Shown here piece after piece: positions 12,775 through 54,923 of a stretch of DNA of 64,000 bases. A program made the position numbers and the translations under genes. This DNA comes from Immundisolibacter cernigliae (GTDB lineage Bacteria > Pseudomonadota > Gammaproteobacteria > Immundisolibacterales > Immundisolibacteraceae): assembly GCF_001697225.1 (NCBI RefSeq), contig NZ_CP014671.1, positions 2,170,001-2,234,000 on the forward strand, written 5' to 3'. Each line of letters begins with the position of its first letter. Within the stretch, counting starts at the first letter, position 1. The notes beneath the pieces are model-generated. The model worked only from the letters and a program-made list of their open reading frames with translations, made no database searches and was not told where the DNA came from.

Positions 12775-13416
12775 TCAAAGCAGCCCGAACAGGTGGCGGT
12801 GGCGCTCGGTGATCACGGCGTCCAGCGGCACGTCCCAGGCCCGGCGCGGCAGGCCCTCGACGCGCTGGCGGTCGAAGGCAACACCGACCAGGCGCGGCCG
12901 GTGCCAACAGCCCGGGCGCAGAAAGGCGAAGCTGCGGTCGTAGTAGCCACCGCCCATGCCCAGCCGATTGCCGGCCATGTCGAAACCCACCAGCGGCAGC
13001 AGCACCAGGTCCAGCATGCGCGGCGCCAGCCATTCCCGGCGCGGGACGAGCGGCTCCGCGATACCGAAGCGGTTGCGGCGCAGCGGCGCCCCGGGCCACC
13101 AGGGCGCGAAATGCAGATGCCCATCCCGCTGCGGGCAAAGCACCGGCAGGTAGCAGGCCTTGCCGGCCACGAAGGCGCGCGCCAGAGCCGGCAGCGGGTC
13201 GATCTCGCCATCGGCCGGCCAGTAGCCGGCCACGCGCGAGGCGCGCTGAAACGCCGGCAGGGTCGATAACTTTCGGGCCACCGCGGCAGCGGCCAACCGG
13301 CGCGCGGATCGGCCGATCTGCCGGCGCCCGGCGCGCAGGCTGCGGCGCAGGGCGGGCAGGGCAACGGCCGCTGACGGGTCGTCGTCAGCGGCCGTGAAAT
13401 CAGGGGGTTCCACCAC
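12775..13416 (-). CDS. 5-formyltetrahydrofolate cyclo-ligase
   Basis: Converts 5-formyl-THF to 5,10-methenyl-THF with ATP in one-carbon metabolism. The 213-residue protein shows [25 protein letters not shown] and the ATP/substrate loop [12 protein letters not shown]. This is the ygfA homologue, and its place downstream of zapA and 6S RNA matches other gammaproteobacteria. The start is a GTG at 13416 (or GTG at 13413), which lies inside the 3' arm of 6S RNA, so the two overlap slightly. No ATG is available nearby. Confidence 0.93.
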
Positions 13417-13596
13417 TTGTGCCGTTGCGGTTCGTCACTCTTGAACCTGATGGTTCAAGGTGGAAGCAGGGGCCGGCCATCAGGCTTCCCGCTACCAGGG
13501 CGGTCCTGCACACAGGCCGGCGAACAGCTTCCAAAGCTTGCGCTTTGTGGTTCAAGAAAATGATTGATCCACTCACGAACACCGCAGTGGAACCCG
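13404..13596 (-). ncRNA. ssrS: 6S RNA
   Basis: About 193 nt between zapA and the cyclo-ligase gene, the conserved locus of 6S RNA. On the minus strand the conserved 3' element CACCTTGAACCATCAGGTTCAAG is read at about 13440-13462. The ends pair through GGGTTCCAC (13587-13595) and GTGGAACCC near 13406, giving the closed rod with a central region typical of 6S. 6S RNA binds the housekeeping RNA polymerase holoenzyme and tunes transcription in stationary phase. The ends are inferred from pairing and the promoter, not mapped. Confidence 0.85.
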
Positions 13597-50604: not shown

Positions 50605-50862
50605 ATGGGCATGAACGTCAACCTCACGCCGCACCTGGAAGATTGGGTGCGCAGCAAGGTCGCCTCAGGCTTGTACAACTCGGCCAGCGAGGTGGTGCGC
50701 GACGCGCTGCGGCTGCTGGAGGAGCAGGATCAGATGCGCACCCTGCGCCTCGATCAGTTGCGCGCAGAAATCCAGCGGGGACTGGACAGCGGCCCCGCCG
50801 AGCCATGGGATGCGCAGGCCCTGAAGCGGCAACTTGCCGCCGGTAAGACCCCAGACGAATGA
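50605..50862 (+). CDS. ParD-like antitoxin
   Basis: An 85-residue antitoxin with the ribbon-helix-helix start MNVNLTPHLEDWVRSKVASGLYNSASEVVRDALRLLEE (CC2985/ParD type) and a flexible acidic tail that would wrap the toxin. It overlaps the ParE toxin gene by 4 bp. It begins an accessory run of toxin-antitoxin pairs on the plus strand. Confidence 0.92.
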   Translation: MGMNVNLTPHLEDWVRSKVASGLYNSASEVVRDALRLLEEQDQMRTLRLDQLRAEIQRGLDSGPAEPWDAQALKRQLAAGKTPDE

Positions 50863-51158
50863 GCCGGATCCTGCGTCGCCGCCAGGCGGCGGCGGATATT
50901 GCCGACATCTGGCGGCACATCGCCCAGGACAAGCCCGCGGCCGCTGACCGGTGGATCGATGACCTCGACCAGCAGTTCGGCCTGCTGGCGCGACAACCCC
51001 TGATGGGCCGCGAGCGCGGCGAAATAGCCGTTGACGTGCGCAGCTTTCCGTTCGGGCGCTACGTCATTTTTTACGTCCCGCTTGCAGATGGCATCGACGT
51101 TTTGCGTGTGTTGCACTCGTCGATGGACATCGAAGCCCGATTCGATCGTGGCCCGTAG
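50859..51158 (+). CDS. ParE-like toxin
   Basis: A 99-residue RelE/ParE-superfamily toxin. The pattern ILRRRQAAADIADIWRHIA, PLMGRERGEIAVDVRSFPFGRYVIFY and IDVLRVLHSSMDI is that of ParE, whose members target DNA gyrase. It is translationally coupled to the antitoxin upstream. No sign of truncation. Confidence 0.93.
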   Translation: MSRILRRRQAAADIADIWRHIAQDKPAAADRWIDDLDQQFGLLARQPLMGRERGEIAVDVRSFPFGRYVIFYVPLADGIDVLRVLHSSMDIEARFDRGP

Positions 51159-51296
51159 GCGTTGTGAATCGGCGTTGTTCGATACTCGTTGGGCACCCAG
51201 TGCGACCGGGATGAATGCGCACGGACTGCGAAGGTGTTGAGCGCCGCACCCACCGGCGCGACACTGCAAGCCACCACGACAACGAGGAGCGCCGCC

Positions 51297-52001
51297 ATGA
51301 CCGACAGCCACCCGATCGTCATCGAGTTCTTTCACGACTGCCTTTCGGCCTGGTGCTACAAGGCCTCCGAGCGCCTGCGCGCGTTCGCCGCCGAGCACCC
51401 GGACGTGCAGATGGTGCAGCGCTGCTTTCCGCTGGCGGTGTCGCCGATGCTGTTCAACCGCCAGCTCTATGCCGACAAGCGCGAGGCCAAGCGCGACGTG
51501 GTGATGGTGCACTGGGCCGACGCGCGTGCCTTCGAGCCGGACCCGCGCATCGACTGCGAGCTGATGATGACGCGCGATTTCGACTACCCCTACTCGCTGC
51601 CGAACCAGCTGGGCGCCAAGGCAGCCGAAATGCAGGGCGGCCAGCGCGCGCACTGGGACTTTTTCGATCGCGTGCAGCGTGCGCACCTGACCGAGTGCCG
51701 CAACATCGCCGACTACGCCGTGCTGCGCGAGTGCGCCGAGGACATCGGCCTGGACGGCGAGCGCTGGCTGCACGACGTGTTCGGCGAGCATGCCCGCACG
51801 CTGCTGGCGGACGACATCGAGCGTGCCGCCCGCTACGGCATCCTGCGCATTCCGGCGCTGGTGGCCGACGGCCGCCACGTGCTGGGTGGCATCCCGCGCT
51901 CGACGCTCGGCCACTGCCTGCGCGAGGAAGGCATCGAAACCTTCTACGAGGACATCAAGCGGCGGCGCATGCTGGGGTATGGGCTGCCGCCGGCGGAGTG
52001 A
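51297..52001 (+). CDS. DsbA-like (FrnE-type) thioredoxin-fold protein with altered redox motif
   Basis: A 234-residue cytoplasmic thioredoxin-fold protein without signal peptide. Where relatives have CPWC, this protein has S17-A-W-C20, so only the second Cys remains; another Cys lies at position 15 (DCLSAWCYKA). The cis-Pro loop LRIPALVADG is present near residue 190. Disulfide exchange by the standard mechanism is unlikely; glutathione-transferase-like activity is possible. It lies between the ParDE and MazEF modules. Confidence 0.85.
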   Translation: MTDSHPIVIEFFHDCLSAWCYKASERLRAFAAEHPDVQMVQRCFPLAVSPMLFNRQLYADKREAKRDVVMVHWADARAFEPDPRIDCELMMTRDFDYPYSLPNQLGAKAAEMQGGQRAHWDFFDRVQRAHLTECRNIADYAVLRECAEDIGLDGERWLHDVFGEHARTLLADDIERAARYGILRIPALVADGRHVLGGIPRSTLGHCLREEGIETFYEDIKRRRMLGYGLPPAE

Positions 52002-52107
52002 GGGCAGGGACCTGGTCTTTCATGCGGCATCGGTGCTGCTGCCAGGCGCCAATCCGCCTTCGAGTAGCTGCAATGAGGCTGTGCTCCCTCGCCACGGGCG
52101 ACGCGCC

Positions 52108-52347
52108 ATGCAAACCGAAATCAAAAAATGGGGCAACAGCGCCGTGGTCCGGCTGCCGGCGCCGATGCTGTCCGAGCTTGGCCTCACGGTGGGCTTGCGC
52201 ATCGAGCTGAAACACGAAAACGGCCGTCTGGTCATCGAGCCGGTCCGCCCCGTGCGCGAGGGCTGGTTTGCCGCGCCGGTTGCCGCGGACGAAGACGCCT
52301 TCGCCACCCTCCGGCCGGACGAAGGGGATGACGAATGGGTGTGGTGA
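52108..52347 (+). CDS. MazE-like antitoxin (AbrB fold)
   Basis: A 79-residue antitoxin with the swapped-hairpin DNA-binding domain IKKWGNSAVVRLPAPMLSELG at the N-terminus and an acidic C-terminal tail (FATLRPDEGDDEWVW) for toxin binding. It overlaps the MazF gene by 13 bp. Confidence 0.92.
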   Translation: MQTEIKKWGNSAVVRLPAPMLSELGLTVGLRIELKHENGRLVIEPVRPVREGWFAAPVAADEDAFATLRPDEGDDEWVW

Positions 52348-52649
52348 GGCGCGGCGAGGTCTATTGGGTCAACCTCGACCCGACCGTCGGCATCGAAATC
52401 CGCAAGACTCGACCCGGCCTGGTGATCTCGCCCGACGACATGAACGCCGCCCTGCCGCGCGTCATCGTGGCGCCACTGACCAGCAAGGCACACCCGCTCG
52501 GCTGCCGTCCCACGGTGGAATTCGGCGGCAAGCAGGCGCGCATCCTGCTCGACCAGCTTCGCGCCATCGACAAACGCCGGCTCGGCGGCCGCGTGGGCAG
52601 CATCGACCTTGCGTTGTGGCATCCGGTGCTGGTGGAGATGCTGGCATGA
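52335..52649 (+). CDS. MazF-like endoribonuclease toxin
   Basis: A 104-residue toxin. MazF features are RRGEVYWVNLDPTVGIEIRK, TRPGLVISPDDMN, VIVAPLTSK and ARILLDQLRAIDKRRLGG. It cleaves single-stranded RNA at short motifs; the cut site cannot be read from sequence. The length and all core motifs are normal, so it looks functional. Confidence 0.93.
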   Translation: MGVVRRGEVYWVNLDPTVGIEIRKTRPGLVISPDDMNAALPRVIVAPLTSKAHPLGCRPTVEFGGKQARILLDQLRAIDKRRLGGRVGSIDLALWHPVLVEMLA

Positions 52650-52849
52650 ACAGGTCCGGGCCAGCTCGGGGAGCGTGCGCAATCGTGTGCGCCCTGGGAA
52701 TACTGGGGAGGGAGCGCAATGCGCAGCGCCTATTGCACTCTGTCCGGGCTGGGGTCAGCAACCCGATCATCCCGGATTCCGCTACGCTACATCCAGGCTA
52801 CGCTTCGCTGGTACGAACAGGCCCCGCGCAACGCAGCGAGGTATCCGGC

Positions 52850-53680
52850 ATGAGTACCGTCACGATCTACCACAACCCGACCTGCGGCACGTCGCGCAAC
52901 ACGCTAGCGCTGATCCGCGCCAGCGGCATCGAGCCCACGGTCATCGAGTACCTGAAGACGCCGCCCGACCGCGAGACCTTGAAGGCGCTGATCGCGCGGA
53001 TGGGCATGGGCGTGCGGGATGTGTTGCGCATCAAGGGCACGCCCTACAAGGAACTGGGCCTGGATGCCGCGCATTGGAGCGACGACCAGTTGATCGATCA
53101 GATGCTGGCGTACCCGATCCTCATCAATCGGCCCATCGTGGTGTCGCGCTCGGGCGTGCGCCTGTGCCGCCCCTCGGACATGGTGATCGAACTGCTGCCG
53201 CAACGACCGGCGGGCGAGATCCGCAAGGAGGATGGCACGCCGCTGCTGGTGGATACGCCGATCGCCGGCAGCGACCTGGACCTCGCCCTGGCTTTGCAAG
53301 AGGCCGTGCTTCCCACGGACGACCTGGCCGAACCAGGGCGCAGCTTCTTCGCCTATGCCACGGTGTCCGGCGAGTGCGTGGGCTACGGCGGCTTCGAGCG
53401 CATGGGCCGGGACGTGCTCGTGCGCTCCCTGGTGGTGCTGCCACACGCACGCCATCGCGGCATCGGCGGCGGAATGCTCGCACTGCTGTTGCGCCGTGCC
53501 TTCGACGAGGGCGGGCGCGACGCCTGGTTGCTGACCACGACGGCTGCGCCGTTCTTCGAGCGGGCGGGCTTCAGGCCAATCGAGCGCAGCGCCGCACCGG
53601 CGGCCATCCTTGCCACACGGCAGGCCGCAAGCCTGTGTCCTTCGAGCGCCGTGTTGCTTGGACGTCGAATGTCACTGTGA
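52850..53680 (+). CDS. Arsenate-reductase (ArsC)-like domain fused to a GNAT acetyltransferase
   Basis: A 276-residue fusion. Residues 1-~117 are a glutaredoxin-type ArsC with the catalytic Cys12 in NPTCGTSRN, the ArsC-type segment PILINRPIVVS and the conserved Arg regions. Residues ~135-276 form a GNAT domain (VRSLVVLPHARHRGIGGGMLALL, PFFERAGF) like ArsN, which is linked to arsenic or arsinothricin resistance. The ATG at 52850 has GCGAGG as ribosome site. No arsR or arsB gene is in the window. Its stop TGA is directly followed by the structured segment. Confidence 0.88.
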   Translation: MSTVTIYHNPTCGTSRNTLALIRASGIEPTVIEYLKTPPDRETLKALIARMGMGVRDVLRIKGTPYKELGLDAAHWSDDQLIDQMLAYPILINRPIVVSRSGVRLCRPSDMVIELLPQRPAGEIRKEDGTPLLVDTPIAGSDLDLALALQEAVLPTDDLAEPGRSFFAYATVSGECVGYGGFERMGRDVLVRSLVVLPHARHRGIGGGMLALLLRRAFDEGGRDAWLLTTTAAPFFERAGFRPIERSAAPAAILATRQAASLCPSSAVLLGRRMSL

Positions 53681-54250
53681 TGTGCCCTCGCAAGGGCATC
53701 CCGGAACACAGAGGTGCATCAGTGAATTGACGAATCGCCGAAGGCCACGCGGGCCTTCGGCTGGAGAGGAAGGAAAACCACCTGTGGGCTGCGTCAGCAC
53801 AGGCCGTCGTCAAAGCCGTTCGCTGCGTCAGCAATCGCACCCGGCCCGTTTCGTGGCTGGGGCCGGAAACCTCTGGCATGCATCCACACACAAAGGGAGC
53901 CCGATGTTTCGCCGGCGGGCACCGGCCGGAATACCCTCGGCCCAAGGGGCCTCCTCACGGCTCGCGCGACGGCAAGGCGTCAGGAAGCCCCTCTGGCCGA
54001 GGCAAGGCACACCGATCAAGGGAATGGCGGCGGACGCGATTCGTGGAGCAATGACCTTCTCGCCCCGTCGCCCGATGGTGGGCAGACAGGGCGCGCACGC
54101 CGTTGCAGAAGGAGACGCGCGCTGGGGAGTCCCGCCACACGCGGGACGTTTGAACTTGATGACCCGACCACCGGCCGTACGCGGACGGGCGTCACCCGCC
54201 GTTGAGGCGTGAAAGGAAAATCCTTACCATGGGAAAACCTTCGTATCGGG
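53681..54250 (+). ncRNA. Candidate large structured non-coding RNA, class unknown
   Basis: About 570 bp between two plus-strand genes with no credible protein frame but dense perfect inverted repeats. Examples are TGCCCT/AGGGCA (53683-53698), GCCGAAGGCC/GGCCTTCGGC (53737-53761), CCTGTG/CACAGG (53781-53803), CCGGCCC/GGGCCGG (53841-53866) and GTCCCGC/GCGGGAC (54129-54147). CCTCGGCC (53935) pairs with GGCCGAGG (53995) around a nested GGGGC/GCCCC. GCTGCGTCAGCA occurs twice (53788, 53822). The plus strand is favoured because unpaired stretches are A-rich. An ORF-less mobile RNA of the HEARO/omega-RNA or group II intron type is possible; I cannot assign a family. Confidence 0.5.
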
Positions 54251-54259
54251 AGCCCGCTC

Positions 54260-54478
54260 ATGATCAGCAGCAAACTGACCAGCAAAGCGCAGACGACCAT
54301 CCCGCAACCCGTTCGTGTTGCCCTGCACCTGGAGCCAGGCGACGAATTGGTCTACGAGATTGATGATCAGCGCGTGATTCTTACCAAGGCCAAAACCAGC
54401 GACAGGGCTGACGATCCATTCCGCACGTTTCAGGAGTGGAGCACCGAAGCGGACGCGAAGGCTTATGCCGACCTTTAG
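54260..54478 (+). CDS. AbrB-family antitoxin
   Basis: A 72-residue antitoxin with the AbrB/MazE core SSKLTSKAQTTIPQPVRVALHLEPGDEL, where the segment up to VR is the DNA-binding loop. The C-terminal tail (PFRTFQEWSTEADAKAY) should bind the toxin. The ATG at 54260 is preferred; the frame upstream reads through the structured segment. It overlaps the toxin gene by 14 bp. Confidence 0.9.
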   Translation: MISSKLTSKAQTTIPQPVRVALHLEPGDELVYEIDDQRVILTKAKTSDRADDPFRTFQEWSTEADAKAYADL

Positions 54479-54815
54479 GCAGGGCGACGTCATCAAGGTG
54501 CCGTTTCCGTACACGGACCGCTCCACCCGGCAGTCCAGGCCAGCACTGGTGGTGTCGGCCGGCAGCCTCGAAGAGGCCCACGGACTGCTGTGGGTGGTCA
54601 TGATCACCAGCGCTCAGAACCGGGGATGGCCGGGCGACGTGCCGGTGGGCAATCTTGCGGCAGCCGGCCTACCGGTGCCGTCCGTGATCCGGGCCGCGAA
54701 AATCGCCACCATCGAAGCGACGGACGCGTCCAGGTTGGGTACTGTGGCCCCCGCGGTATTCCGACGGGTGGCCCAATGTCTGGCCAATCAGCTTGGTCTG
54801 GACGCCCGACCGTGA
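54465..54815 (+). CDS. PemK/MazF-like toxin
   Basis: A 116-residue toxin of the MazF/PemK superfamily. RQGDVIKVPFPYTD at the N-terminus and SRPALVVSAGSLEE match the ChpB/PemK type; VIRAAKIATIE is the central strand. It is a different subfamily from the MazF at 52335, so the two pairs are not recent duplicates. Confidence 0.88.
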   Translation: MPTFRQGDVIKVPFPYTDRSTRQSRPALVVSAGSLEEAHGLLWVVMITSAQNRGWPGDVPVGNLAAAGLPVPSVIRAAKIATIEATDASRLGTVAPAVFRRVAQCLANQLGLDARP

Positions 54816-54923
54816 CGGGGAGCGCACGCGTCCGAGCGGCACAGGGCTGCGATAACGCGTTGGGCGTCATAAGGCGGGCGCGTGGGCCTTTTGCATGAGA
54901 CCACGTATTGACGGGACAAGACA

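Follow-up and report, generated by a model that had tools for sequence, protein, structure and literature searches.

A predicted conserved structured element beside topB in ICEclc-type integrative and conjugative elements, with a putative stranded copy in Immundisolibacter cernigliae

Genomic location and origin of the element

The segment considered here occupies positions 53681-54250 of a 64,000-nt stretch of the Immundisolibacter cernigliae genome (NZ_CP014671.1, positions 2,170,001 to 2,234,000; the window), between an arsC-GNAT fusion gene and a PrlF/MazF-type toxin-antitoxin pair. The original prediction, made from the sequence alone, treated the whole segment as one gene-free, densely structured unit. 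Its noncoding and strongly structured character is upheld by the comparisons below, but the coherent unit is 53736-54152; the ends of the segment are a spacer and the upstream region of the toxin-antitoxin pair (Table 1). Elsewhere this unit, hereafter the element, is found in integrative and conjugative elements (ICEs) related to ICEclc, generally next to topB, the gene for topoisomerase III.

Window positions 52808-54152 (1345 bp) are collinear at 93-97% with ICE loci of several bacteria, namely L109, L134, L027 (from 52856), L032 (Bordetella hinzii) and L052 ([Pseudomonas] boreopolis), and the same fragment is 88.7% identical in ICE locus L042. The window thus carries a 1345-bp ICE remnant in which arsC-GNAT and the element arrived together. 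The similarity stops at 54152, next to the toxin-antitoxin pair. In the ars-carrying ICEs topB stands right of the matching stretch, and what lies left of it resembles, from its translation read by eye, the terminal part of an arsenite permease gene. Because no ars genes are inserted at the corresponding place in the ICE that this genome carries at 1.40 Mb, the remnant would derive from another ICE. Having lost topB, the window copy has probably lost its promoter too and is probably an inactive relic. An empty-site comparison with the congener G001 showed only that 1.3 kb of different sequence stands there where the window has 52004-54902. A short dispersed repeat at window 52762-52810, with ~18 matches in that congener, adjoins the ICE fragment on its left.

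The segment begins after a GTGA and ends close to an ATGA, which had been taken as signatures of an insertion site. The GTGA is the stop of arsC-GNAT and the ATGA a start region, and self-insertion at such a site is at odds with an element that came with arsC-GNAT in the 1345-bp fragment. Both a free mobile element and a HEARO-style discrete insertion beside ATGA/GTGA were rejected, the left flank with arsC-GNAT being common to the ars-carrying ICEs and collinear with other ICEs. The proposed link to mobile DNA was nevertheless sound, as the element resides in ICEs. From the idea of a mobile or regulatory structured RNA without its partner protein, the conserved, structured and noncoding character and the absence of the usual partner genes are retained, and the free mobile RNA is dropped. 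An ICE leftover can pass for a mobile RNA, as this case shows.

Distribution and gene neighbourhood

A second copy of 53736-54152 lies in the same genome (C1:1401573-1401992, 96% by BLAST) within an ICE region, adjoining topB. The element also occurs in a plasmid of Pseudomonas veronii (94% identity) and in one of Tistrella (70%). At least 119 further stretches were retrieved from bacterial genomes by an exact 30-letter core pattern, so that in these 119 loci the 23 fixed letters (window ~53890-53919) are invariant by construction. Among the matches listed, topB adjoins the element in fixed orientation in 115 of 127 copies, and pilM of pKLC102/PAPI-1-type elements adjoins six; only the window copy (two entries) has neither, and four others end at contig or locus limits. 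In 56 copies the element starts 44-47 nt beyond the stop codon of topB. Surrounding ICE genes include those for topoisomerase III, DUF3577/STY4534, DUF3158 and PFL_4669 as well as ssb, which is in the same cluster in L009/L138. These neighbours place the element in the ICEclc/PAGI-2 and PAPI-1/pKLC102 superfamily. No copy was found in the E. coli genomes searched; among phage records the core occurs in two unannotated ones from human faecal samples.

A covariance model of the conserved core, R1 (140 nt), matches the copies of pilM-type ICEs over its full length (E 4e-14 to 6e-11). Scanning 398 genomes of the phylum with R1 added three copies independent of the pattern (L173, L174 and L175). 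Each lies 5' of a radC RNA (RF01754) that shares its strand; two follow topB and two precede a DUF3577 gene. A weak R1 match at L171 (G058:C112:11397-11537; 25.5 bits, E 7.9e-4), with no topB or radC RNA nearby, is chance or a distant relative.

The usual order is topB, element, radC RNA, next operon, and the radC RNA begins ~100 nt downstream of the element in ICEs without cargo there. Cargo such as ars genes inserts between the two, which argues against a simple leader role; a cis-regulatory leader of the next operon is accordingly a weakened candidate, as kilobases of cargo intervene in many ICEs.

Noncoding character, fold and strand

In 29 homologues of the element, 223 of 236 insertions and deletions are not multiples of three and variability is about equal across codon positions (0.17/0.17/0.19), while stops interrupt the 200-aa frame of the window in most copies. 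These features rule out a protein-coding gene in the element and uphold the description of the segment as gene-free.

The segment folds beyond chance on both strands when compared with dinucleotide shuffles (plus strand z = -2.59, 1 of 100 shuffles as good; minus strand z = -3.99, 0 of 100), and more strongly on the minus strand, which the original prediction had not stressed. The repeats it described are present: the two units of the 12-bp direct repeat GCTGCGTCAGCA occupy exactly 53788-53799 and 53822-53833, the perfect 10-bp inverted repeat has its arms at 53737-53746 and 53752-53761, and a single imperfect 31-bp hairpin contains both of the nested helices, 53935/53995 and 53946/53987.

An alignment of 29 diverse copies (A4), folded with RNAalifold on the topB-sense strand, gave 83 pairs. 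Standard pairs are formed in 97.5% of its cells, against 94.2 +/- 0.2 in shuffled and 39-49% in slid controls. Compensatory changes, which had been named as the check on a predicted structure, are found: 24 pairs vary on both sides, against 12.0 +/- 1.9 in shuffled controls (0 of 500 as high) and 5-9 in slid ones. The share of paired cells, too, was matched by none of the shuffles. Examples are helix 3 (CG 17 / UA 11 and UA 16 / CG 9) and helix 13 (CG 21 / UA 8), in addition to those in Table 1. On this comparative evidence the element is best described as a conserved structured noncoding element.

The strand was assessed on a structure of Watson-Crick pairs only, which treats both strands alike, with unpaired columns as background. 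Read on the topB strand, ~90 departures from Watson-Crick pairing produce G.T and 43 produce A.C, a wobble bias toward this strand (window minus) with a background-corrected odds ratio of 1.82 (p = 0.005). The excess of G.T over A.C favours the topB-sense strand as the folding molecule, which would most simply be RNA.

Table 1. Features in and around the segment (window positions)
Feature	Position	Strand	Basis
ParD/ParE pair	50605-51158		
MazE/PemK-like pair	to 52649		
Putative ICE-derived fragment: arsC-GNAT cargo gene and noncoding element	52808..54152	.	Collinear match in ICE loci
arsC-GNAT fusion gene (ICE arsenic-resistance cargo)	52847..53680	+	Pfam ArsC 5.3e-20, Acetyltransf_1 2e-9
Spacer between arsC-GNAT and element	53681..53735	.	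Flank comparison: same type in ars-carrying ICEs, different in other ICEs
Predicted conserved structured noncoding element, ~417 nt	53736..54152	- (inferred functional strand, topB sense)	Second genome copy, P. veronii plasmid, alignment A4 and fold
Terminal hairpin, 10 bp (3' end on topB-sense strand)	53737..53761	-	A4 helix 15: 97.9% of cells paired, 3 two-sided pairs, including GC to AU
Conserved core, covariance model R1	53800..53938	-	152.2 bits, E 4.6e-39 in window
Core helix, clear covariation	53841..53866	-	A4 helix 11: 100% of cells paired; GC 14 / AU 12 / GU 3 at one pair
Long hairpin	53935..54002	-	31-nt arms 53935-53965 / 53972-54002, 81% complementary; A4 helices 6 and 7, 9 two-sided pairs
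5' domain hairpin (topB-sense), covarying	54062..54092	-	A4 helix 3: 3 two-sided pairs; also in 75-sequence fold
Upstream region of PrlF/MazF-type toxin-antitoxin pair, unrelated to element	54153..54259	.	Without similarity to any ICE copy
PrlF-MazE/PemK-like pair	54209-54815		

The three toxin-antitoxin pairs of Table 1, all of type II, cluster at window 50605-54815, a region that differs from congener G001.

Possible functions of the element

The account we lean towards, with little more than even confidence, is that the segment is the stranded end of an ars-carrying ICE of the ICEclc family and that 53736-54152 is a conserved structured element produced as RNA together with topB. The best reading of the element itself is a candidate new structured RNA family of ICEclc-type ICEs, for which co-transcription with topB is probable. 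The RNA would form the 3' portion of the topB transcript, would end at the conserved terminal hairpin, and may act while the ICE processes its DNA, the phase in which topB and ssb are expressed. Stationary phase brings a strong induction of the topB/ssb transcript in ICEclc (log2 ratio 5.6; PMC2892462). More tentatively, ICEclc/PAGI-2/PAPI-1-type ICEs may possess an undescribed ~420-nt RNA of several domains, derived from the topB transcript and acting in trans on ICE replication or transfer; if true, an ICE superfamily of medical and environmental importance would gain a new large RNA.

Several results weigh against a role as RNA. A consensus search around one copy found no promoter- or terminator-like site. 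The covariation test was restricted to a predicted structure that was itself derived from the same alignment; when all pairs were tested against all with a tree-based null, none fell under E 0.05 (best 0.075), so the support covers the predicted structure overall and not single pairs, although this stricter test was short of power. By folding energy alone the two strands cannot be told apart (mean z -4.1 vs -3.6, p = 0.13), and some G.T pairs would be tolerable in folded single-stranded DNA too.

The last point bears on the main rival, in which the element works as single-stranded DNA, as a complementary-strand origin or single-strand promoter during rolling-circle replication or entry into the recipient. 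We regard this as unlikely. The wobble bias is the usual sign of RNA, and a 420-nt multi-domain element is large for an origin of that kind. The fixed position amid DNA-processing genes (topB, and ssb in the cluster of L009/L138) and the strong folding of both strands would suit it well, as would the dependence of ICEclc replication on the relaxase and oriT1 (PMC6561031). Precedents are the single-strand origin of ICEBs1 (PMC4595007) and the STAXI motif, found beside the same kinds of genes, for which a role in single-stranded DNA was considered by its authors (PMC2864571). The ICEBs1 origin is likewise structured noncoding ICE DNA; it belongs to a Gram-positive ICE, and the likeness is drawn without sequence comparison.

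A second transfer origin (oriT2) of ICEclc-type ICEs, nicked by the MobH relaxase TraI, is improbable. It would account for a conserved, noncoding, hairpin-rich element near DNA-processing genes, and ICEclc does carry two functional oriTs (PMC6561031, PMC5714925). However, the oriT signature of ICEclc and ICEnahCSV86 is reported to comprise the 6-bp repeats CCCTTT/GCCTTT, two of each (PMC9298801), and this cluster is absent from the element, 71 of 80 copies having a single repeat. Such repeats stand instead immediately 5' of mobH, both on the P. veronii plasmid and in the genome from which the window comes, and a single oriT is reported for a related ICE (PMC9298801). Identity with an oriT of the ICEclc/ICEnahCSV86 type was therefore rejected. 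At L153:1720-1878 and L137:19808-20183, the stretch immediately upstream of the mobH relaxase gene is a candidate oriT containing AAAGGC/AAAGGG repeats.

Hardly probable at all is a passive structured spacer, a topB operon terminator and insertion hot spot that only ends transcription and insulates: the left neighbours do vary between ICEs, with ars cargo inserted right at the terminal hairpin, but conservation extends over ~417 nt including unpaired stretches, far past a terminator, and the core is recognisable in pilM-type ICEs without an adjoining topB.

Elements of the ICEclc, PAGI-2, pKLC102 and PAPI-1 types disseminate genes for degradation, metal resistance and virulence among beta- and gammaproteobacteria; ICEclc serves as a model for ICEs. 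The noncoding element next to topB, being long, conserved, folded and without an entry in Rfam 15, offers a concrete target for deletion. It may prove to be a regulatory RNA, a single-strand origin or the second oriT, and any of these would close a gap in the picture of ICE replication and transfer.

Comparison with known systems

The element matched no Rfam 15 covariance model at gathering score, and searches up to E 10 gave only short chance matches. The only gathering-score match in the window is a 6S RNA (RF00013, 103 bits) at 13406-13593 on the minus strand. HEARO/OMEGA RNA and group II introns had been suggested as comparisons, and GOLLD and ROOL as further models to check; the Rfam check found no match to any of these models, for HEARO/OMEGA neither at gathering score nor up to E 10, and all four were set aside. 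HEARO/OMEGA RNAs and group II introns are large RNAs which, like the element, are structured and linked to mobile DNA; unlike them, the element has no Rfam match, no adjoining partner protein and no autonomous insertion boundaries.

The ICEclc-type oriT is akin to the element in being a noncoding region of the same ICE family; it is transfer-related and adjoins mobH with CCCTTT/GCCTTT repeats, whereas the element adjoins topB without such a cluster. The STAXI motif (RF01728) is likewise structured, and in mobile DNA it neighbours ssb as well as topoisomerase and integrase genes (PMC2864571). It differs in consisting of tandem pseudoknot repeats in Enterobacteriales, and the element does not match its Rfam model.

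The radC RNA motif is a structured noncoding motif on the same strand of the same ICEs. Its model has no match in the element or the window, and the ICE matches fall outside the element. Such RNAs repeat on these ICEs, mostly on the core-gene strand, as on L014 (6078-6226, 7586-7738 and 9331-9476, minus) and on L009, L012, L016, L017, L018, L019, L025, L030, L032, L046, L053, L069, L088, L094, L096, L130 and L133. A literature search on radC RNA found no paper, and its spread over ICEclc/PAPI-1-type ICEs may merit study of its own. From the element it differs in sequence and fold, in its length of 149 positions, in its several copies per ICE and in its presumed role as a cis-regulatory leader.
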